Below, in pieces: positions 9,922 through 50,004 of a stretch of 64,000 nt of DNA. Source of the stretch: Pseudobdellovibrio exovorus JSS (GTDB lineage Bacteria; Bdellovibrionota; Bdellovibrionia; Bdellovibrionales; Bdellovibrionaceae); assembly GCF_000348725.1 (NCBI RefSeq), contig NC_020813.1, positions 1,364,001 through 1,428,000 of the forward strand, given 5' to 3'. The notes under the pieces are model-generated. The model saw nothing but the letters and a program-made list of their open reading frames with translations. It made no database searches and was not told the origin of the DNA. Made by a program: the position numbers and the translations under genes. Each line of letters starts with the position of its first letter. Position 1 is the first letter of the stretch.

Positions 9922-10836
9922 GATTAAATGGCGTCCATTAAGAGCTCCGCGAAGCACCAACACAGCCCCCGCAACCCAAATGAAAATAAAGCCGACAAAC
10001 TTCAAAGGTGTGACCTCTTCTTTAAAGATCACAACTCCGGACAAAAACTGCAAAGTAGGAGCTAAAAATTGAAAAAATCCCAGCAGATAATACGGAATTC
10101 TTTGTGCTGCCTCAGCAAAGAATATCAATGGCAATCCGGTCACAATCCCCGAACCAACTAATAGCGCCAGTGATATGTCTTGGTTCTGGTTCGTCATCCA
10201 ATCTGTAGGTTGCAGTAGTAAGAAAACTAGCGCTACAGGCACAAATAGTGCGGACTCAAACTGGTTGGATTTCAAACCAGACACCGGATTCATTTTCTTT
10301 ATTAAACCATAGCCAGCAAAGCTCAAGGCTAAATACAGAGCTATCCACGGCACTTTCATTTGGGCCACAGTGATAATTAAGACACCAATAGCTGCTAAAA
10401 TCCCTGCTATTTTTTGTTCGCGATTCAATGTTTCTTTTAGAAAGATCATTCCGATCAAAATATTTACCAGAGGATTAATAAAATATCCTAAACTGCTTTC
10501 GACAATTTGCCCTGAATTCACCGCATAGATGTACACCAGCCAATTACTCATCAATAAAACAGATGCAAAACCCAAATTAAAACTGAGACCTTTTGTTTTA
10601 GGTCTAAAAAAACTGAGACCTTTTGTTTTAGGTCTAAAAAAACTGAGCTTTCTTTCTTTCCAAAATAGAACTGCGGTATAAAAAACAAATGCCCAAATCA
10701 CACGATGACTGAGGATTTGCATGAGTGGGACATGTTTAAGAAATTTCCAGTAGATGGGAAAAAATCCCCATCCTATATAGGCTAACGTGGCGTAGCCCAT
10801 TCCTATTTTAAGCTGATCAGATTTAGAGTTATCCAT
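9913..10836 (-). CDS. rarD: RarD-type EamA/DMT transporter, 307 aa
   Basis: Integral membrane protein of the drug/metabolite transporter superfamily with about ten hydrophobic segments and two EamA repeats. RarD-like features are 'GYATLAYIGWGFFPIYWKFL' at the N-terminus, 'RVIWAFVFYTAV', 'NWLVYIYAVNSGQIVESSLG' and 'YFINPLVNILIGMIFLKE'. RarD was named for chloramphenicol sensitivity; the true substrate is unknown. A perfect 30-bp duplication adds ten residues ('FFRPKTKGLS' twice) between the second and third membrane segments, which are otherwise of normal spacing. The start overlaps the mpl stop by eight bases, so it is the distal gene of the mpl transcript. Confidence 0.9.
   Translation of the reverse strand: MDNSKSDQLKIGMGYATLAYIGWGFFPIYWKFLKHVPLMQILSHRVIWAFVFYTAVLFWKERKLSFFRPKTKGLSFFRPKTKGLSFNLGFASVLLMSNWLVYIYAVNSGQIVESSLGYFINPLVNILIGMIFLKETLNREQKIAGILAAIGVLIITVAQMKVPWIALYLALSFAGYGLIKKMNPVSGLKSNQFESALFVPVALVFLLLQPTDWMTNQNQDISLALLVGSGIVTGLPLIFFAEAAQRIPYYLLGFFQFLAPTLQFLSGVVIFKEEVTPLKFVGFIFIWVAGAVLVLRGALNGRHLIKK
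10581..10640. repeat. Perfect 30-bp tandem duplication inside rarD
   Basis: The 30 bases at 10581-10610 recur exactly at 10611-10640, and the first seven bases of a third copy follow. The unit is ten codons, so the frame is kept and the protein gains ten residues in a cytoplasmic or periplasmic loop. Exact identity at the DNA level points to a recent slippage event. Confidence 0.97.
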
Positions 10837-40508: not shown

Positions 40509-41543
40509 ATGATTCGCTCTTTGACTTGCGGCATAGTTATTTATGACGAGATTAAAGAGATTCAGAATCTTATTCCAAAAATCAAACTGGAACTAAAAGA
40601 GTTTGATGTTGAATGGATTTTCGTACTCAACCATGAACAAGCCGAGATCAGAAAATGGATCTCGGACTGGATCAAAGCCAACATTCCCAGCGCTTTATGC
40701 CATGAAAACCCTAGTAATAATTTGGGCTTTGCAAGGCAGATTATTTTAGAAAAAGCCTCTCATGAATATATCTACTTAACAGATCCAGATATCGATATCC
40801 TATCTGGTAACTTAAAAAAGCTAATTCAGTTAGCCAATGTTGAAATCACCAATGAGCCTGATTTAAAATTCTTAGGTTATGGAGGAACAGTAACCCATAG
40901 ATCAACGAATTCCTTGCTACAAAACACATTTGATCTGATGTCTAAGATTTCAAAACTTATTCCCTTTTCTTTTCAAATCCAAAACCATACGTTTTTAATG
41001 GCCGTTGATCACTTACCCTCTTGTCACCTACTCTTAAATAAAAGGCTTGCTATGAGGATTGGTGGTTTTTCTTCCGCTTTTCATAAATATGGTGAAGATC
41101 TGGATTTCACCCATAGAGCCTATACTCACAACTACCGCTTCGTTTTCTTACCTTCGGCGCAAGTTATCCATTGGCAGAACTTCAGCACTCTTCGCTGGGT
41201 TCAAAAGATGTTTCAACATGGTCGTATTCAAATCCCAGTTCAAAGAATGAATTGGAAAGGTGGATTACGCTACTACAGATTGATACCTTTACTCACGCTA
41301 CTGGCCGTGACTGTGTACAGTATCCTCAATATCTACTTTCTACTTTTTGGATTAGCTTTCGTGACTTTGCTTGGCCTTTTCAACACCGGCATCATTGGTT
41401 TTTTCGTTACTTATATCGCTTACTCATTCGGGGAACTTTTTGAGCTAATCGTGCCACTCTTTGAATACAAAAATGCAGAACAATTGCAGGCGATAAATAA
41501 AGACCTGAGACTCCAACTCGGCGAAGCCAAAAACCATAACTAA
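40509..41543 (+). CDS. Family 2 glycosyltransferase with membrane anchor, 344 aa
   Basis: GT-A fold. 'LGFARQIILEKASHEYIYL' and 'TDPDIDILSG' (the DxD metal and nucleotide site) mark the transferase domain; 'MRIGGFSSAFHKYGEDLDFT' carries the ED motif of the acceptor site, and 'HRAYTHNYRFVFLP' follows. Two or three hydrophobic segments near residues 255-315 anchor it in the inner membrane. It begins at the base after the rny stop, so it shares that transcript. Its last 137 bases overlap the convergent glycosyltransferase at 41407. Acceptor and donor unknown. Confidence 0.87.
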   Translation: MIRSLTCGIVIYDEIKEIQNLIPKIKLELKEFDVEWIFVLNHEQAEIRKWISDWIKANIPSALCHENPSNNLGFARQIILEKASHEYIYLTDPDIDILSGNLKKLIQLANVEITNEPDLKFLGYGGTVTHRSTNSLLQNTFDLMSKISKLIPFSFQIQNHTFLMAVDHLPSCHLLLNKRLAMRIGGFSSAFHKYGEDLDFTHRAYTHNYRFVFLPSAQVIHWQNFSTLRWVQKMFQHGRIQIPVQRMNWKGGLRYYRLIPLLTLLAVTVYSILNIYFLLFGLAFVTLLGLFNTGIIGFFVTYIAYSFGELFELIVPLFEYKNAEQLQAINKDLRLQLGEAKNHN

Positions 41544-42192
41544 CCGCCTCTTGGGGATACTGAATCATCTTGTCTTCATTATAACCATGCAGAAACGCAC
41601 GCCGAACAAAATGTTGCCATGAGGTGGTTGTAGAATGAACCACCTCAAAATCTACTAAGGTCTTAAGTTCAAAACCATTCCCCTGCAGCAAGTAAGATAA
41701 GTATTTATCTTCTGCTCCCCAAAAATTATCTTTTTGATGCTCTAAGGCAGGAAGCTCTGTCCAACTTCTGACGAGAAAAGCACCACCCAGAAAAAAATTG
41801 AATTTGGATTCAGGACGGAAAGAGTGCTCAACCCAAATATTCGCCACTAAGTTATGAGCTTTCTGCAAATAAGAAGCACACATTGGGTTGGCGTAATACC
41901 CCGCATAGACCTCGCTCTGTTGAGAGGATTTTTGCACTTCTACTAAACTTGTCAGCACCTGCAGACTTTTTGAAGTCATACGACAATCATGGTCTAAAAA
42001 ACAGAGCCATTGCTCTTGATGGCTTTTGATAAAATCATAACGACTTTGCGATAAAGGATTACACCAAACGATTTGGGCTTGAGCGATCCCCATAGCGACA
42101 AGATCACGCCGTGCTAATTGATATGAACTTTCCGATTGTGCAAATATAACAAATACTATTTGCTGTAAGCCATCTTTTGTTACGATTGCCAC
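41407..42192 (-). CDS. Family 2-like glycosyltransferase, 261 aa
   Basis: The DxD site is 'LCFLDHDCRMTSKSL'; 'FFLGGAFLVRSWTEL' and 'FWGAEDKYLSYLLQGNG' match the acceptor-site region (with the ED motif) of GT2 enzymes. The usual N-terminal 'VSVIIPTYN' strand is reduced to 'QQIVFVIFAQSES'. I start it at the GTG at 42192, since GGTGAT lies about seven bases before it and the open frame upstream only overlaps the neighbouring transferase. It overlaps that gene's end by 13 bases. The last 45 residues are antisense to the neighbouring transferase on the + strand. Confidence 0.8.
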   Translation of the reverse strand: MAIVTKDGLQQIVFVIFAQSESSYQLARRDLVAMGIAQAQIVWCNPLSQSRYDFIKSHQEQWLCFLDHDCRMTSKSLQVLTSLVEVQKSSQQSEVYAGYYANPMCASYLQKAHNLVANIWVEHSFRPESKFNFFLGGAFLVRSWTELPALEHQKDNFWGAEDKYLSYLLQGNGFELKTLVDFEVVHSTTTSWQHFVRRAFLHGYNEDKMIQYPQEAVSYGFWLRRVGVSGLYLSPAIVLHFCIQRVARLAQKVPRMSKRYK

Positions 42193-42899
42193 TTTTTCAT
42201 CACCACAAAAAGAAAAAGAAACCCATCCTTTACAACTGATAACTTCGAATCCCCGACACGATCGCGATAAGCGATGGGAACTTCTGATAACTTCCACTTA
42301 TTTTTTACACTCAAAGCGGTGAACTCGATTGAAAATGCCAAGCCATTATCCTTTAAGGCAATGACCTCACCTTTTTTCGAAGCTTTGAAAATTCTCATTC
42401 CCGAACAAACATCACTTAGTTTTGAGCCCAACAAAACCCTTAAAAGCCAAACATAAAGTCTATTGCCCAAAGATCGTATAATGGAAATATCAGAGTTCGA
42501 ATGAATTCGAGCACCATAGACAATATCCAAATCCTCTTGGTGGAGCTTCTTCCACATATCTATAAGGCTCTTTAAGGGATAGGTGTTATCCAGATCAAGA
42601 AAAGCCAAGTAGTCTGCTCTAGCATGGGCGTATCCATATTTCAGTGCCGCTCCGTAACCTTGTACGGGACAGGAAATAACCTGAAGCCCCTCTATTGAGG
42701 CTTCTAGTTTTTTCAGCAATTCTAAAGAACCATCAGTTGAATTATTATCAACAATCAGAACCGAAAAATCTATATTTGGGACAATTTGCACGCGCTTGAG
42801 TTCTTCTAAAAATAGGCGCAGTTCCTTTTCAAAGAAAGGAATACAATCGACCTCATTATAACATGGCACAATAAGCGCGAGACTAGATTTTTTGAGCAT
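42180..42899 (-). CDS. Dolichyl/polyprenyl-phosphate hexose synthase-like family 2 glycosyltransferase, 239 aa
   Basis: The best-recognised transferase of the locus: 'LALIVPCYNEVDCIPFFEKE', 'VDNNSTDGSLELLKKLEA', 'VQGYGAALKYGYAHARADYL' and the DxD 'FLDLDNTYPLKSL' are standard for the DPM1/GtrB-like group that moves a sugar from a nucleotide to polyprenyl phosphate. 'SDVCSGMRIFKASKKG' and 'YRDRVGDSKLSVVKDGF' complete the catalytic domain. No C-terminal membrane segment of the GtrB type is present. It starts only 21 bases from the divergent transferase at 42921. Confidence 0.9.
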   Translation of the reverse strand: MLKKSSLALIVPCYNEVDCIPFFEKELRLFLEELKRVQIVPNIDFSVLIVDNNSTDGSLELLKKLEASIEGLQVISCPVQGYGAALKYGYAHARADYLAFLDLDNTYPLKSLIDMWKKLHQEDLDIVYGARIHSNSDISIIRSLGNRLYVWLLRVLLGSKLSDVCSGMRIFKASKKGEVIALKDNGLAFSIEFTALSVKNKWKLSEVPIAYRDRVGDSKLSVVKDGFLFLFVVMKKWQS

Positions 42900-42920: not shown

Positions 42921-44411
42921 ATGAATTTGCTGTCTACTGACAACTCGTTTTATCGCTACAACATCAGTAATAGCCACGATCTGAGCGAGTCTTGCTTTAA
43001 TCGAAGACAAAGCAAAGCTCAATATAACAACAAAAAGTCTTTCTTCTTTAACATAGAATCAAAGCTGGAAGATCCCACTTTAGCCCGCGATTTTTTATCT
43101 TCACATCTTAAAGAAAAAGATATTCTGTGCTGTACGATCGAAACGCATGATGCCTTTTATAAATCTGTTGAAAAAACGAAATATGTCCTCTTAATCCGCC
43201 AAGCCAGCGACTTACCGTTCCTATTAGAACATCTAAAAACCATAGAGAATGTGCTTTTGATCCCAACGAATAAATCTGATCTCGCTAGCTTTACTGAGTT
43301 CCATAAAACACATAACGACAAACTTAATATTTTCTGGAGGTTCTTACCTTTCAGCGAGAATACACCTCAGTCATTAACAGTAAAAGACATCTGTTCGACA
43401 CACATCGACTACAAAACGATAACGGGCCTGGAAATTTACAACCCGAATATTCCACATCATTACGAATTAGTACCACAAAGCAATATCTCTTATAAAATCC
43501 GCTGGAAGACCCAATCAAAAAATCCCGAGAACATTCGTATTTCTGTTATCATCCCAACATTTAATAATTCTATATTTCTTTCAAATGTTGTATGGCACCT
43601 CATCAGACAAAATACGTCTCAGGATCTTTACGAAATCATCATCGCAGACGACGGAAGCACCGATAACAGCAGCGAAGTTTTGTTCAATCTCTATCATAAG
43701 GCATTTGATGGACAGGTAAACATCACCTATATTCACTGGAGTAAACAACATCCTCAGCGCGGCGAGCAAAACTTCTTCCGTCCGGGCCTTTGCCGCAATT
43801 TAGCTGCCCATTACAGTAAAGGGAATTATCTGTTCTTTTTAGACTCCGATATGCTCGTTCCCAATAACTTCATTGAGACCTGCCTGAATGAATTTACGCA
43901 AACGGATGTGATGCAATTCCAACGTTTCCATATAAATCAGGAAAAAAGCTTACAAAATCCTTCTTATAAAGATATCCAAATTGAAAAAGATACCTATATT
44001 GAAGAAAAAAACTATTGGTCACAGCTGTTCTTCTGCCGTAACTGGAGTGATCTACCCGACTATTGGAAATACACATGCACCTATGCTCTAGGCATTGAAA
44101 AGAAAAAGTTTTATGAACTCGGACTTTTTAAAAAATATTATATCTCTTACGGATTTGAAGATACCGACTTAGGATATGAAGCTTTTAAAAGGCGTTTACG
44201 TTTTTCCTTGGTAAAAGTCCCTTTGTTACATCTGACTTCATACGATTTGATGCAGTATAAAAACTCAGCTTCCAAACGGTATACTCTTTTGAAGGTGACA
44301 GCTGAGCTTTTCTTCTTGCAGCACTTACAACCAGAACTATTAACGCTTTTTGGTAGCTTCTATCGCTCTCAGCGCTCTTTAAAATTTCGCCTTAAAGAGC
44401 TTTGGCGTTAA
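42921..44411 (+). CDS. Two-domain family 2 glycosyltransferase, 496 aa
   Basis: The first 200 residues have no recognised domain. From about residue 205 a GT2 domain is clear: 'RISVIIPTFNNSIFLSNVVW', 'IIIADDGSTDNSSEVLF', the DxD in 'LFFLDSDMLVPNNF' and 'LGLFKKYYISYGFEDTDLGY', the C-terminal motif of the galactosyltransferase (Glyco_transf_7C) type. This C-terminal motif is common in enzymes for chondroitin- or capsule-like polysaccharides. The N-terminal part may be a second, degenerate transferase domain. ATG start with no good ribosome site; converges with the next gene with a 4-base overlap. Confidence 0.88.
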   Translation: MNLLSTDNSFYRYNISNSHDLSESCFNRRQSKAQYNNKKSFFFNIESKLEDPTLARDFLSSHLKEKDILCCTIETHDAFYKSVEKTKYVLLIRQASDLPFLLEHLKTIENVLLIPTNKSDLASFTEFHKTHNDKLNIFWRFLPFSENTPQSLTVKDICSTHIDYKTITGLEIYNPNIPHHYELVPQSNISYKIRWKTQSKNPENIRISVIIPTFNNSIFLSNVVWHLIRQNTSQDLYEIIIADDGSTDNSSEVLFNLYHKAFDGQVNITYIHWSKQHPQRGEQNFFRPGLCRNLAAHYSKGNYLFFLDSDMLVPNNFIETCLNEFTQTDVMQFQRFHINQEKSLQNPSYKDIQIEKDTYIEEKNYWSQLFFCRNWSDLPDYWKYTCTYALGIEKKKFYELGLFKKYYISYGFEDTDLGYEAFKRRLRFSLVKVPLLHLTSYDLMQYKNSASKRYTLLKVTAELFFLQHLQPELLTLFGSFYRSQRSLKFRLKELWR

Positions 44412-45391
44412 AAACGGCTACCGCCATCTTGTTTTGATTGAATATCTTTTTTGAGCTTATCCATCAGGTGATAACGCCCTTGATTGAGACTACTCACTTG
44501 ATCACGAAAAAAATGGGGTATAATTTTCCAAAGAGCTTTCTGTTGACGATAATATCCATACCAAAAAGCATAGTTCAGATACCAAAGCACCACCCGATAC
44601 AAAAATGGCTTTTCATCACGCAGAGATCTATAGCTAGCCAACCGGAAGGTACTATTAAACTTTTGGTCAGAATAAGAAGCACCCATCCCTTGCTTAATAG
44701 TTTTACGAGTTAACCCAAAAAAACTTTCCTGCGTATGATGAATCAAATCCAAATCAATAAGAACTTTTTTCAGCCCTTTAGCTTCAGATGCTCTAAAGAA
44801 ATCCATTTCGGTTCCACCATATATCAGGTTTTCATCAAAGCTAATGCCAGAAATTTGAATTAACGACTTCTTAGCAGAAAAGTTCCCGCCTAAAAGAAAT
44901 TGGACTTCGTTCGCCGCACCTTCTTGTTTCTTTCCCCACAACAGCCACTGCTGTTGAATATAATTGTAGATTTCGTCAAAGAATTTAGTACTGGCTGGAA
45001 GCTGGTACCCCCCACCAAAGGCAAAGGTAGAAGGATTCGCTTGATGTAGATCAATGTGGATATCCAGAAAGCGAACTATATCTAACTCACAGTCATCATC
45101 CAAGAAGAGCAACAGTTCAGCTTTAGACTCTTGAATACCAATATTTCTGGCAATATTGGCTCCAATTTTTTCAGAAAATAGAAAATGAATATTCGGAGTG
45201 GACAAATAAGAAGAAAAGCGCTTTTGTAACTCATTTTTTTTCTGAGTTACTCCGCCATTAAAAACAACTAAAGTCTCGATACTTCGATTGGGAGTTTTAA
45301 ATATCTGTTTTTGAATTGAATTCAAGAGCTGTTCTAATCTATCTAAATCAACACCTATACTTGGAATAATTATCGAAATTGATGGCGTCAT
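44408..45391 (-). CDS. Family 2 glycosyltransferase, 327 aa
   Basis: GT2 domain: 'SISIIIPSIGVDLDRLEQLL', 'FSEKIGANIARNIGIQESKA', the DxD 'LLFLDDDCELDIV' and 'FLLGGNFSAKKSLIQISGI' with 'YGGTEMDFFRASEAKGL'. The C-terminal 90 residues contain aromatic amphipathic stretches ('FLYRVVLWYLNYAFWYGYYR') that may lie on the membrane. It overlaps the aromatic repeat protein gene upstream by four bases (ATGA), so the two are co-translated. Confidence 0.87.
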   Translation of the reverse strand: MTPSISIIIPSIGVDLDRLEQLLNSIQKQIFKTPNRSIETLVVFNGGVTQKKNELQKRFSSYLSTPNIHFLFSEKIGANIARNIGIQESKAELLLFLDDDCELDIVRFLDIHIDLHQANPSTFAFGGGYQLPASTKFFDEIYNYIQQQWLLWGKKQEGAANEVQFLLGGNFSAKKSLIQISGISFDENLIYGGTEMDFFRASEAKGLKKVLIDLDLIHHTQESFFGLTRKTIKQGMGASYSDQKFNSTFRLASYRSLRDEKPFLYRVVLWYLNYAFWYGYYRQQKALWKIIPHFFRDQVSSLNQGRYHLMDKLKKDIQSKQDGGSRF

Positions 45392-46767
45392 TTCATTAAC
45401 CGCTTAACTCTAGTATTATATTGATAATTACAAAACCAATAGACTTTACGAATTGGATACAGCAAATAAAGCTTTGTTATACGATAAAGGAATGTACTTA
45501 AATCATAAATTAAGCCGTATCCTTTATAAAGGCACATTAGAAAGAAATGCCTAATATCGTATTTTATAAAATTGATCGCACCAGTAATAAGAACGAAATA
45601 AAGATAATAAAAGACACGATAATATAAAAAATAACCTACTTTATAATAAAGAAAATTCCAGACATGTAGCTTCAAATAACTCCATGTATTCATGATAATT
45701 TTATAAAATATAAAATTCCAAATATAGACCTTTAAAAAAGCCCAAATATTCATAAAAACCTTATAAAATATAAAATTCCAAATATAGATTTTAAAAAAGG
45801 CCCAAGTGCCTAAGATTATTTTATAAAAGATGAAGTTAATCGATTTTACGAGTACTTGGTGATAAAGAAACAAAGTCCCTTTAAATATATAATTGAAGTA
45901 AATTCTATATAAAAATTTATAGACAAAAACATCCATAAATCTATCCCATACGCGAACAAATGCATGATAGCTATCAATAAAAATACCAAAAGATTTAAAG
46001 CCCATCATAAGTAATAAATGACGAACTCCATAAGCAATTTTAATCGCCACAATCTTAACTAAAACAAATCCATAATTAAGAGTCTTCCAAAGTCCTCCCA
46101 GAAAAATCAGAATATATTTCCAGATTATCGCTTTGCAAACAAAACCTAGGAAGGATAACAACTCAAAAAAACGATATACCAAGCGCACATTAGAGTGTTT
46201 CACTCTTTCGAAGAAGCCCTTTGCCTCGTTTATTGGATTAACAAAAAATTTTAAAAACAAAAGAAATATCAGTGGTAACCCAACTGTTTTCGTTTTTACT
46301 TTTTGTGTTTTGATAGCTGGCATCTTCAATATAGAAATATTTTTTGTTTTGAATTGTCGACTAATATACTGTCGATCTTTTAAAGCTGTTGAGTTTAGAT
46401 GACCACACAAAATGATAGTTTGAGTTGCCGCTATTCCTAATTCTTCCAAATAGGATAAGTCGAAATGTTTATGTGACAGAACGTAATATCTTTTCAGACT
46501 ATCCTGAGAAGATATTTTTTCCTTTTCAGCCTCAGAAAGGTATCTGTACAATAGAACGGCGCCGACCTCTTGTTCGAAATTATAATCTACATCAATCTTT
46601 TTTAAATCTAATTGCCCATAACGATTTTCTTGTATGAAAAATCCCGATTTATTATCTTCCACAGGACGTACTTCTACAAAATTCATTACGTACAACATAT
46701 GTTGCCGAATATCTTGCTCTTGTCCGTAGAAAATCAACTTACTTTCGTTCACTCTTCTATCATACAA
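45388..46767 (-). CDS. Aromatic-rich repeat protein, probably membrane-associated, 459 aa
   Basis: No known family. Residues 1-150 look globular and soluble ('IDVDYNFEQEVGAVLLYRYL', 'LSHKHFDLSYLEELG'), with a possible Rossmann-like strand 'QTIILCGHL'. A hydrophobic segment lies near 163-176. From about 195 the protein is extremely rich in Tyr, Phe, Trp, Ile, Leu and Lys; residues 311-390 hold four 20-residue repeats (311, 331, 351, 371). The spacing and Lys/aromatic pattern suit amphipathic helices lying on or crossing the membrane. Start codon uncertain: TTG at 46767 fits the frame, a GTG at 46752 is possible, and no strong ribosome site is seen. It shares a transcript with the transferase at 44408. 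Confidence 0.75.
   Translation of the reverse strand: MYDRRVNESKLIFYGQEQDIRQHMLYVMNFVEVRPVEDNKSGFFIQENRYGQLDLKKIDVDYNFEQEVGAVLLYRYLSEAEKEKISSQDSLKRYYVLSHKHFDLSYLEELGIAATQTIILCGHLNSTALKDRQYISRQFKTKNISILKMPAIKTQKVKTKTVGLPLIFLLFLKFFVNPINEAKGFFERVKHSNVRLVYRFFELLSFLGFVCKAIIWKYILIFLGGLWKTLNYGFVLVKIVAIKIAYGVRHLLLMMGFKSFGIFIDSYHAFVRVWDRFMDVFVYKFLYRIYFNYIFKGTLFLYHQVLVKSINFIFYKIILGTWAFFKIYIWNFIFYKVFMNIWAFLKVYIWNFIFYKIIMNTWSYLKLHVWNFLYYKVGYFLYYRVFYYLYFVLITGAINFIKYDIRHFFLMCLYKGYGLIYDLSTFLYRITKLYLLYPIRKVYWFCNYQYNTRVKRLMK
45598..45837 (-). repeat. Four 60-bp in-frame repeats in the aromatic protein gene
   Basis: The 60-base period is exact. A 27-base block at 45701-45727 recurs at 45761-45787, and the units at 45658-45717, 45718-45777 and 45778-45837 encode 20 residues each with the consensus 'NFIFYK.....W..LK.YIW'. 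The fourth unit (45598-45657) is diverged ('NFLYYK' start only). Confidence 0.93.
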
Positions 46768-46840
46768 GGCGAACTCACAAAGTAAATACTGTATTTAATA
46801 ATCTTGCTAAGCCCATATTTTAGTGAAAACATATCCATAT

Positions 46841-47425
46841 ATGAAGCAGATTTCTTTCTCGGCAGACGCTTTTTCTCACTCACAAATCAAATCTAAGCTA
46901 TGGCTTTCCAATAGTTTTTCCACTTGGTATCGTAAATACTTTTTACCTCAAAATAGCTATACACTTCATTGGTATGGAAGTTGGGTGGGACTAGGTCCTT
47001 TTATACTACTCATTAACTCTGATATACAGATTGATCGCATTGATTTATATGACCTAACCTTAAGTGATCTGGAAGTTTCTAAAAAAATACTTAATTTTTT
47101 CGATTGCGAAGGAGTTCACGTAGTCCCTCACCATCAAGATGTAAACCAAGTACCTCCTGTAGGGATAGAAAATCAAATTTTTATCAATACGTCCTGCGAA
47201 CATATGGCATCACAGGACTGGTTAATTAAGATTCCCAAAGACAGCTTCATAGTTTTACAAGCTACAGATATGCCTCACAAAGAACACATCAATAGCCCGC
47301 AAAGCCTAGATCACTTTATTGAAAAGTATGCCGATCACTTGAATATATTAGAAACAGATCAATTGCCCTTTGAGTATCCAGATAAATCTTTTACGCGTTT
47401 CATGATATTTGGTACAAAAAAATGA
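46841..47425 (+). CDS. Possible class I SAM-dependent methyltransferase, 194 aa
   Basis: The middle and end are suggestive of a small methyltransferase domain ('PFILLINSDIQIDRIDLYDL', then 'QIFINTSCEHMASQDWLIKI', 'FIVLQATDMPHKEHINSP'), where 'NTSCEHM' and 'LQATDMPHKEHIN' occupy the place of post-SAM motifs in sugar- or capsule-linked methyltransferases. The GxGxG SAM loop is not clear ('WVGLGPF'), so this is a pattern-level inference. The ATG at 46841 is chosen; a GTG at 46823 is in frame and neither has a good ribosome site. Overlaps the next gene by four bases. Confidence 0.6.
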   Translation: MKQISFSADAFSHSQIKSKLWLSNSFSTWYRKYFLPQNSYTLHWYGSWVGLGPFILLINSDIQIDRIDLYDLTLSDLEVSKKILNFFDCEGVHVVPHHQDVNQVPPVGIENQIFINTSCEHMASQDWLIKIPKDSFIVLQATDMPHKEHINSPQSLDHFIEKYADHLNILETDQLPFEYPDKSFTRFMIFGTKK

Positions 47426-48789
47426 AAAAATATCTTGGTTGGATTTTATTGCTTCCACTGCTAATTTATGGCTGCTTCTACCATATTTCATCTTCGGAAT
47501 TCTGGCCCATGACGATTTCAAAAACATGGTGGAATTGGTCGTTTTTTGAGCCATCACAATTACAAAAGCCCCTTTTTTCTTTCTTTCTTTCGTTTTTCCA
47601 CATTCTTCCCTTAAGTGATTTAACCCATATTTATTTCGTTAAGTTTGCATTTTCTCTATTAGGTATAGTGGCGCTGTATATCTTTATAAAATCTGCCATT
47701 GAAATTTCTCAAAAACAAATCACACACAACAAACTCATCTTGATTGCTCTTCTTTTTTGTCTATTTAGCCCTATATTCTTGAAAAACTTCTCTCGGATAC
47801 GTTCAGATCAAGTTGGTTTTCTATTCTTTATCCTGTCTGTATATTTTTATTTAATCAGAAGGATGCGACTTTCTTTTTTGTTCGCAATACTACTTCCCAT
47901 CAGCAGTATTAAATCCATTTTATTTTTCATCCCCTTAGCTTTTATTATCCTTCCTCAATACTTAAGCTATTTTAAAAAGCTGAACTTTATAAAAAAACTC
48001 AACTTAACGCTTCTAACCCTTGCTGCCTTAGTTTGGGCTATTGGTTATAATTTATCCGCTCTTTCTTACCTGATCGCTACCTACCAAGATGCTTCTTTCC
48101 CAACTGTCTATTTAAAAAATTTCGTTACTGTAGAAATGCCATTTATCTTATTAAGTATCTTAACATCCTTATGGATCTTGCTTAATAAGCGGCTCCGCCT
48201 TATTCCTTATGCCCTTGCCTCTCTTAGTTCGTTAGCACTTATTGTGGCGATACCTCAATCTTACTCCTACTATATCGCCAGTTTTGTCCCTATAGTCTAC
48301 CTGCCACTGCTTACCGTCTTAATCCAATATGGATTCCAATACAAAAAGGTCTTTGTCACAACGCTATCTCTATGCCTGCTGTATTCGAGCATTATGATGT
48401 GGAAGAAGAACCTTCCCTATTTTATTTCTAGTTGTCCGCAAATACTTTTTATCTCAAAAGCCTCAGCCTTAACTAATCTTCATGGGTTTAATTATCTTGA
48501 TGGGATGGGGATGCTGCCTCGGCAAAATCTGATTCCTTGCTTCGCTTCCCCTTCTGACCCCATAGCGAATAATGGCTGTCGCGAAGCCTTAGAAAATCAG
48601 CCGGATGTTATCATTATCACACAAAGACTTCTAGAACTTGGAAATGAGTCATTCAAGGTAGCTGCTGAAAATTATTTTCAGGTCTATCCCAACTACTGGG
48701 TACATCAAAAATACAAAGAAGAAGTCGAAATAAAAAAGGGAGATCTTGATAACCTCCCCGTGCCTTTGATTATATTTATGGTGGATTAA
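47422..48789 (+). CDS. Polytopic membrane protein, possible GT-C type transferase, 455 aa
   Basis: Ten or more hydrophobic segments spread over the whole length. The early loop 'SEFWPMTISKTWWNWSFFEP' with 'LQKPLFSFFLSFFHILP' (first outside loop, Trp-rich with Glu and Asp nearby) and 'NFSRIRSDQVGFLFFILSVY' resembles the arrangement in the GT-C (ArnT/PMT-like) superfamily, which uses polyprenyl-phosphate sugars; the nearby DPM1-like transferase would supply such donors. The C-terminal outside domain is about 70 residues with a pair of Cys ('LIPCFASPSDP', 'NNGCREAL'). Assignment to GT-C is inferred. Its stop directly abuts that of the prepilin gene. Confidence 0.72.
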   Translation: MKKYLGWILLLPLLIYGCFYHISSSEFWPMTISKTWWNWSFFEPSQLQKPLFSFFLSFFHILPLSDLTHIYFVKFAFSLLGIVALYIFIKSAIEISQKQITHNKLILIALLFCLFSPIFLKNFSRIRSDQVGFLFFILSVYFYLIRRMRLSFLFAILLPISSIKSILFFIPLAFIILPQYLSYFKKLNFIKKLNLTLLTLAALVWAIGYNLSALSYLIATYQDASFPTVYLKNFVTVEMPFILLSILTSLWILLNKRLRLIPYALASLSSLALIVAIPQSYSYYIASFVPIVYLPLLTVLIQYGFQYKKVFVTTLSLCLLYSSIMMWKKNLPYFISSCPQILFISKASALTNLHGFNYLDGMGMLPRQNLIPCFASPSDPIANNGCREALENQPDVIIITQRLLELGNESFKVAAENYFQVYPNYWVHQKYKEEVEIKKGDLDNLPVPLIIFMVD

Positions 48790-50004
48790 TTACATATCCA
48801 CTTTGTAACAGCTTAACGAAACGTAATCCGTCCGACCGCTATAACTCTGTGCAATACCTAAAGAGCATTGCCCAACCGTCGTATCACCATAAGTAGAACT
48901 CGGAGGTCCCGATGGACAACGCTGACGAATAGTATAAAGCTCCCCCGGAACCGCGATAAATTTAGCTTCTACGATCGCATTGGACATAGCCCACTGCCCC
49001 GCAGTAGTTGTACCCTCAGCAATTACTGTACTGTTAGTTACATTATATATCTGCACCCCAAAACTTCCTGTCGAGAAAGCCTGCGCATTTACGATACAAC
49101 TATAAGGTCCTCCATTATTGGCTGTGAATGTAAACCTTGTTGCTGGAGATGAAAGCTGGTAAAGAGAAGAATCTCCACTTGGGTTTTGCCACAACCCCCT
49201 GTCTCCACCAGTTGGGTAATATCCCCACCCCGCTGTACAAGCTCCGGCTCCTGCATTTGCACAACTAGGAGTTGAATTTGCTGGAGTAAACCCCATAGTC
49301 AGACGGAACTGACGATTGGTTTGAACAGCCGTACGTTTTACGACGATATCATAACGACCATCATTTTCTGGTCCTTCTAAGTCAATTCGCGACAGATTCC
49401 CTTGATCTATCAAGCCTCTGAAGCGATGCAAGTACCCTTGATTCGATGGATTGTAAATTAAACGACCCACAATTTTAACTTGCGGGTTCACACACGTTGT
49501 CCCTGATGGACAAGTGTACATATACACTAATCTATAAGAGATCGGACATGAGTCATTCCCCATGTTTCCAGTTTGTGAAGACGTAAAAGTACTACAGGTG
49601 GCTCCGCTTTCAGTAAAGCCGTTTGAACCTGTACCAGCCCAATTTAATAAGTTAAACGCCTCATTGTTAGCGGCATCTCTGACAACTAATTTTTGAGGAG
49701 CCGTTCCTGCGATGACAGCACAGGCGGTTGTATCGCGCAAACACGCTGTTGACTGATTCGCAGGGGTAATGGCTAAGTTGTTGGAATCAGCCAAGGTGTA
49801 GGTCCATGCCTGCTGATCTCTTAGCATATTCTCGATCCGGATTTTATTTTCACGAAGAGTGGCTAGAAGAACGGTTTTCTTTTGCTCGATCATCGAGTTC
49901 TGAATCATGGTCGCAATACCCAACGACACCACTGCCGTTAGACCTGCCGCGACCAGAACTTCGATAATACTTATACCTTTTTGATTACGAACTTGATTCA
50001 TCAT
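48790..50004 (-). CDS. Type IV prepilin-like protein (PilW-like minor pilin), 404 aa
   Basis: The N-terminus is a type III signal: 'NQKGISIIEVLVAAGLTAVV', with Gly before the cut, Ile at +1 and Glu at +5, followed by a hydrophobic helix. A C-terminal domain of about 350 residues has many Cys, Gly, Thr and Asn and reads as beta-rich ('RFRLTMG'-like strands), with several probable disulfides. Length and layout are PilW-like. No other pilus genes are nearby, so it may be an orphan or accessory pilin. Upstream fadE is 59 bases away on the same strand; a hairpin sits in the leader. Confidence 0.85.
   Translation of the reverse strand: MMNQVRNQKGISIIEVLVAAGLTAVVSLGIATMIQNSMIEQKKTVLLATLRENKIRIENMLRDQQAWTYTLADSNNLAITPANQSTACLRDTTACAVIAGTAPQKLVVRDAANNEAFNLLNWAGTGSNGFTESGATCSTFTSSQTGNMGNDSCPISYRLVYMYTCPSGTTCVNPQVKIVGRLIYNPSNQGYLHRFRGLIDQGNLSRIDLEGPENDGRYDIVVKRTAVQTNRQFRLTMGFTPANSTPSCANAGAGACTAGWGYYPTGGDRGLWQNPSGDSSLYQLSSPATRFTFTANNGGPYSCIVNAQAFSTGSFGVQIYNVTNSTVIAEGTTTAGQWAMSNAIVEAKFIAVPGELYTIRQRCPSGPPSSTYGDTTVGQCSLGIAQSYSGRTDYVSLSCYKVDM

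Follow-up and report, generated by a model that had tools for sequence, protein, structure and literature searches.

A putative membrane-docking tail, aromatic and basic, associated with a glycosyltransferase cluster of Pseudobdellovibrio exovorus and other Bdellovibrionales

We analysed a window of 64,000 nucleotides from the genome of Pseudobdellovibrio exovorus JSS (a single contig of 2,657,893 bases) and found in it a protein, here called ARO (aromatic/basic tail protein), whose acid-poor C-terminal tail ends in a motif that recurs across the Bdellovibrionales, both on stand-alone proteins and on family 2 glycosyltransferases (GT2s) of the kinds encoded beside ARO (Table 1). Judging from sequence comparisons, we somewhat favour the reading in which ARO serves an envelope-glycan assembly cluster as a docking subunit, with a tail that acts as an interfacial membrane-docking scaffold. 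Other genomes are referred to as G, loci in them as L, and families as f, each with a number.

Table 1 Features of the analysed window (positions in the 64,000-nucleotide stretch).
Feature	Position	Strand	Evidence
ARO, aromatic/basic tail protein	45388..46767	minus	ORF, 459 aa from TTG; five syntenic orthologues
N-terminal alpha/beta domain, residues 1-150	46318..46767	minus	AF2 pLDDT 77, pTM 0.74; modelled small TIM-barrel-like fold
RH module 1, residues 246-275, VRHLLLMMGFKSFGIFIDSY...	45943..46032	minus	Module HMM, iE 2.5e-15
Array of four 20-residue units, the last decayed, residues 311-390	45598..45837	minus	TRF, unit comparison, shuffles
RH module 2, residues 403-432	45472..45561	minus	Module HMM, iE 1e-14
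C-terminal motif P-x-R-K-x-Y-W-F-x-x-Y-Q-Y-x-x-R, residues 430-459	45391..45480	minus	27-tail profile, E 1.3e-13
GTe, GT2, ATGA-coupled to ARO	44408..45391	minus	Pfam PF00535 1.8e-11
GTd, GT2 with extra N-terminal domain, cluster marker	42921..44411	plus	PF00535 7.1e-21
GTc, polyprenyl-phosphate hexose synthase-like GT2	42180..42899	minus	NCBIfam TIGR04182/NF041391 76-83 bits, below cut-off
GTb, GT2-like	41407..42297	minus	Weak PF13506; syntenic in relatives
GTa, GT2-like with C-terminal hydrophobic segments	40509..41543	plus	PF13632 2e-7
Small conserved cluster protein	46823..47425	plus	No Pfam/NCBIfam match; kept in relatives
Hydrophobic multi-span cluster protein	47422..48789	plus	No Pfam, NCBIfam or PDB match; kept in clusters of distant relatives, across families

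Anatomy of the ARO protein

The plus-strand reading of the ARO region contains many stops. Because the aligned homologues begin at the residue matching GTG 46749, the true start of ARO probably lies there, giving a protein of 453 aa. Among the window's 53 non-overlapping ORFs, ARO has the highest content of Phe, Trp and Tyr (22%), in agreement with the aromatic richness noted in the sequence-only reading. That reading had also proposed four 20-residue repeats with a decayed last unit, and these were recovered: the units begin at residues 311, 331, 351 and 371 (each 20 aa or 60 bp), TRF detected the 60-bp array, the period of 20 (z 6.2) is the strongest internal periodicity among the same 53 ORFs, and no shuffle matched the period-20 score of the C-terminal part. 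The description of three units as near-identical was overstated; units 1-3 share 60-65% of their residues and 65-75% of their DNA, and unit 4 is 20-30% identical. Elsewhere in the window, at 10579-10647, we observed a perfect 30-bp tandem repeat of 2.3 copies.

Comparison of units 1 and 2 revealed non-synonymous differences at 8.5 of 50.5 sites and synonymous differences at 9.5 of 9.5 sites. As synonymous sites are saturated while non-synonymous changes are few, the repeats are translated and constrained in their protein sequence; together with the existence of orthologues, this rules out a frame artefact and settles the earlier concern that the frame might not be translated.

The tail of ARO consists of 30% F/W/Y/H and 13% K/R with 3% D/E, a composition that fits the membrane-lying scaffold role suggested earlier. 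It belongs to a Bdellovibrionales tail family that we define here by a C-terminal P-x-R-K-x-Y-[WY]-F-x-x-[YF]-Q-x-x-[KT]-R following an aromatic/basic, acid-poor region. Pfam and NCBIfam returned no family match for ARO and none above cut-off for its five orthologues, a profile search of PDB sequences (profile A2) found no match for ARO, and we found no description of such tails in the literature, so that the statement that no family of this design is known holds for the libraries searched. Pfam detected no glycosyltransferase domain in ARO, which is therefore not itself a GT2. Whole-protein AF2 modelling (pLDDT 62) rendered the C-terminal region as all helix at low confidence (44-78 in the array), and gave, with Foldseek, no usable fold for the array.

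The N-terminal 150 residues, previously described as ordinary, were modelled as a small TIM-barrel-like domain, and the corresponding domains of distant stand-alone homologues show profile similarity to the GTd N-domain (hhalign probability 93, E 3e-7, 165 columns). The top rows of a VIA-align search with the ARO domain were mostly TIM barrels, yet Z was at most 5.2, and Foldseek gave no match for it at E ≤ 0.001. The similarity to GTd was obtained only via the distant homologues: aligned on its own, the Pseudobdellovibrio N-domain gave no significant hhalign match to that of GTd (0.11), and its match to the distant set was weak (0.008). ARO lacks the CxxxCxxC iron-sulphur motif of radical SAM enzymes, which a homologue in G304 and the GTd-type proteins of G105-G107 do carry. 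Since some GTd-type and stand-alone members retain this motif, the N-domains of ARO and GTd may descend from a radical-SAM-like barrel whose iron-sulphur cluster was lost in this lineage.

Conservation of the tail and its link to glycosyltransferases

The ARO stop and the GTe start overlap by 4 nt (ATGA). This overlap, consistent with the co-translation proposed earlier, recurs in all six genus genomes that carry ARO, and also in G083, G034 and G048. An ARO orthologue lies beside GTe, in the same place, in 5 of the 13 other genomes of the genus; one scan of genome contigs found no orthologues beyond those five, and within the genus GTd occurs in exactly the six genomes that have ARO. Where the cluster is missing, other genes, or an acyl-CoA dehydrogenase gene, follow the RNase Y-like gene; in G005 the GTa-c genes run up to the contig end.

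The orthologues are 354-520 aa long and 24-39% identical to ARO. Comparing repeat number among these relatives, as had been recommended, showed that all five are missing the 20-residue array (it is absent in G008, and other repeats stand instead in G003 and G007), which on this comparison is a lineage-specific expansion. Common to all six is the RH module (IRHxxLMxxxKSxGxxxD), present in two copies in the ARO genome (G000) and G008, two and a partial one in G012, three in G003 and G010, and four in G007. Two of the G003 copies share 87% of their DNA sequence; over the first 29 codons they differ by 1 non-synonymous and 4 synonymous changes. The orthologues also share the C-terminus P-x-R-K-x-Y-[WY]-F-x-x-[YF]-Q-[YF]-x-K-R. 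As judged from these alignments, the conserved feature is the C-terminal motif together with the aromatic/basic, acid-poor character, and not the 20-residue units. A further copy of the motif ends a short frame of G000 (C1:2377839-2377991, minus strand; L017:7840-7992) terminating in YLFFPVRKAYWFYKFQYEKRIRKL; this frame, which lies between genes resembling those for a transglycosylase and for a GTP-binding elongation factor, has no protein before the motif and no obvious start, and represents a remnant or a tiny gene.

Turning to the order as a whole, we built a terminal-motif profile from 27 tails and searched 369 genomes from the phylum with it. Profile searches identified distant syntenic homologues in other genera, without arrays in G034 and G083 and with its own 14-residue array in G072. 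Stand-alone homologues in G048, G041 and G117 (26-residue units) carry the terminal motif; the G048 protein (L137:5629-8124, 831 aa) has about ten near-identical 16-residue LWKYSPVRLKHWANLH units and diverged ones ahead of it, the strongest array among those examined. The motif or tail also stands at the C-terminus of GTd in G047, G052, G056, G113, G115 and G304 (families f10, f4 and f21) and of GTe in G055, G058, G109, G111 and G112 (family f4). In G014 (L068:7197-10376), a natural GTe-GTd fusion of 1059 aa is followed by a C-terminal W/R repeat array of the WQPWRIAVFVQR type. Arrays without a detectable terminal motif were found in G053, G105, G106, G107 and G140. Beyond the two GT2s, the motif occurs on radical-SAM proteins (G047, G094) and on another unnamed protein (G047, G092, G094), and in these three genomes it is also carried by proteins that do not adjoin the cluster; the radical-SAM proteins at L148:4826-6181 and L182:6034-7380 are distant from it. 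In two proteins (L145:824-2374 and L180:5628-7655) the motif is duplicated within the array, so it can belong to the expanding unit.

The thirty tail regions compared span 94-389 residues, with 0-5% D+E, 12-26% K+R and 14-31% F/W/Y/H. A significant internal repeat is present in 17 of them (periods 14, 15, 16, 18, 20, 22, 26, 27, 33, 37, 44 and 45), several have none, and the repeat units are unrelated between tails. A composition filter alone was unspecific as a tail detector, passing 13 of 162 ORFs, several of them plain membrane proteins.

We then examined co-occurrence. With GTd as marker (E ≤ 1e-35), 44 of the 369 genomes were positive. A tail was detected at E ≤ 1e-3 in 25 of these 44 genomes and in none of the other 325, counts in which related genomes are not independent and the tail in some genomes sits on GTd itself, which makes p-values for the association indicative at most. 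At E ≤ 0.01 the figures were 28/44 and 6/325; the six matches without GTd are probably chance, as their frames measure at most 53 aa. Sixteen GTd genomes have no profile-detectable tail, and some (e.g. G172, G173) have no visible array. The association also holds with the tail encoded separately: in family f1, an array/tail protein was found in 10/10 genomes with GTe (nine by profile, G014 by eye) versus 0/56 without it. The link between ARO and the glycosyltransferases is therefore stronger than the operon context first noticed, extending to synteny, coupled start and stop, tail fusions to both GT2s and phylum-wide co-occurrence. As the tail is supplied in trans here, on a protein coupled to GTe, and is fused to GTe or GTd elsewhere, we take its distribution as evidence that it serves both enzymes.

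The cluster encodes GTc, a GT2 that resembles polyprenyl-phosphate hexose synthases (PDB matches to ArnC and DPMS), together with four more GT2-like proteins and a multi-span hydrophobic protein, possibly GT-C-like, and its acceptors are for this reason probably lipid-linked. GTb probably starts downstream of the listed GTG. One or two pseudopilin-like genes with an N-methyl motif adjoin the cluster (window 48790-50004; likewise L012, L013, L014 and L015), and the G072 cluster (L069) contains pilin-like genes.

Proposed docking role and alternatives

We propose that the C-terminal two thirds of ARO, rich in Phe/Tyr/Trp and Lys/Arg and nearly acid-free, most likely form consecutive helices lying in the cytoplasmic interface of the inner membrane, where Lys/Arg would contact lipid phosphates and the aromatic side chains the interface or an isoprenoid chain. 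The barrel-like N-domain and the conserved C-terminus would hold or gather cytosolic GT2 enzymes at their polyprenol-linked substrate, the translationally coupled GTe as first partner and probably GTd as well; the enzymes would probably be kept on the inner membrane while a surface sugar chain is built. Under this proposal, repeats could expand or be replaced freely because only composition, length and membrane-lying character are needed, and the terminal motif would be conserved because it contacts something specific. The mean hydrophobicity spectrum of the tails has its maximum at 94 degrees per residue, a helix-like value (z 1.16 ± 0.35), with helical amphipathicity weak and uneven: the maximum of several W/R arrays falls near 154-160 degrees, and some other arrays contain a Pro in each unit. 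These spectra do not support a uniform amphipathic helix (100 degrees) for all tails. Also counting against the proposal are the low AF2 confidence in the array, the potentially membrane-spanning segments of some relatives, the GTd genomes in which the profile detected no tail, and the tails on proteins away from the cluster.

An unlikely alternative is that the tail is a chain-length or spacing ruler, in which unit number sets the distance between enzymes, or between enzyme and membrane, and hence glycan size. Tail lengths do vary with clean changes in unit number, RH modules number 2-4 in close relatives, and glycan assembly offers precedents in the WbdD coiled coil and the PglH ruler helix (PMC5792488, PMC3482155); however, lineages differ entirely in unit sequence and period, and several members lack repeats altogether. 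We give a similarly low probability to the idea that the tail is integral to the membrane, as a polytopic or re-entrant domain that perhaps provides a path for the lipid-linked glycan or chaperones it. Wimley-White octanol scores are strongly favourable and some segments exceed 1.6 on the Kyte-Doolittle scale, in some relatives a few being hydrophobic enough for a membrane span, but Lys/Arg content is 12-26% throughout, and the hydrophobic segments are not conserved, with none in G007, G034 or G083.

It is improbable that the tail binds a polyanion (an acidic glycan or nucleic acid) rather than the membrane: net charge is strongly positive in 30/30 tails, but in their aromatic and aliphatic residues the tails resemble interface peptides, and enzymes of the tail-bearing kinds act on lipid-linked sugars in known systems. 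Slightly less probable still is a neutral expansion of functionless repeats on an unremarkable membrane-anchored protein, for although the units are lineage-specific and G008 lacks the array, non-synonymous change between units is suppressed (also in G048, pN 0.06 vs pS 0.37) and acid depletion is kept across the order.

Returning to membrane docking, we tentatively extend it to a modular Bdellovibrionales tail, a conserved terminal motif with a fast-evolving aromatic/cationic array, which might gather several enzymes of one cell (GT2, radical SAM and others) at one membrane site as a surface-glycan factory, array length tuning assembly.

Comparison with known systems

Anchoring of glycosyltransferases to the membrane by basic/aromatic helices is already known. 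New to the family libraries searched are a common tail moving between enzymes, its strict C-terminal motif, and a repeat unit re-invented in each lineage. Through its sequence, the tail gives access to the assembly of an unstudied surface glycan in predatory bacteria and their relatives, and its natural series (94-389 residues, many repeat types) bears on whether composition and length alone suffice for recruitment or size control.

The amphipathic 11- or 33-residue tandem repeats of synuclein, perilipin and apolipoproteins form surface-lying, lipid-binding helices and are charge-balanced with Lys and Glu; in contrast, the present tails are nearly acid-free and dominated by aromatics, with periods of 14-45. 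Some radical SAM proteins bear the tail (L148, PF04055 4e-13) and the G304 homologue keeps CxxxCxxC, whereas ARO lacks this motif and its N-domain is much reduced. The C-terminal region of WbdD (E. coli O9a) brings the polymerase WbdA to the membrane and has a bearing on chain length (PMC3482155); it is likewise a non-catalytic helical C-terminal part, but a trimeric coiled coil on a kinase-methyltransferase, and we saw no relation to P-x-R-K-x-Y-[WY]-F. The ruler helix of PglH (Campylobacter, GT-B fold) combines membrane attachment with Lys/Arg-pyrophosphate and Phe-isoprenoid contacts (PMC5792488), and resembles our proposal as a basic and aromatic helix through which a glycosyltransferase is anchored at the membrane and in contact with polyprenyl pyrophosphate. 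It is, however, one helix within a GT-B enzyme, without repeats or common sequence, whereas the present tails are long, modular and C-terminal, carried by GT2 enzymes or by a separate subunit.
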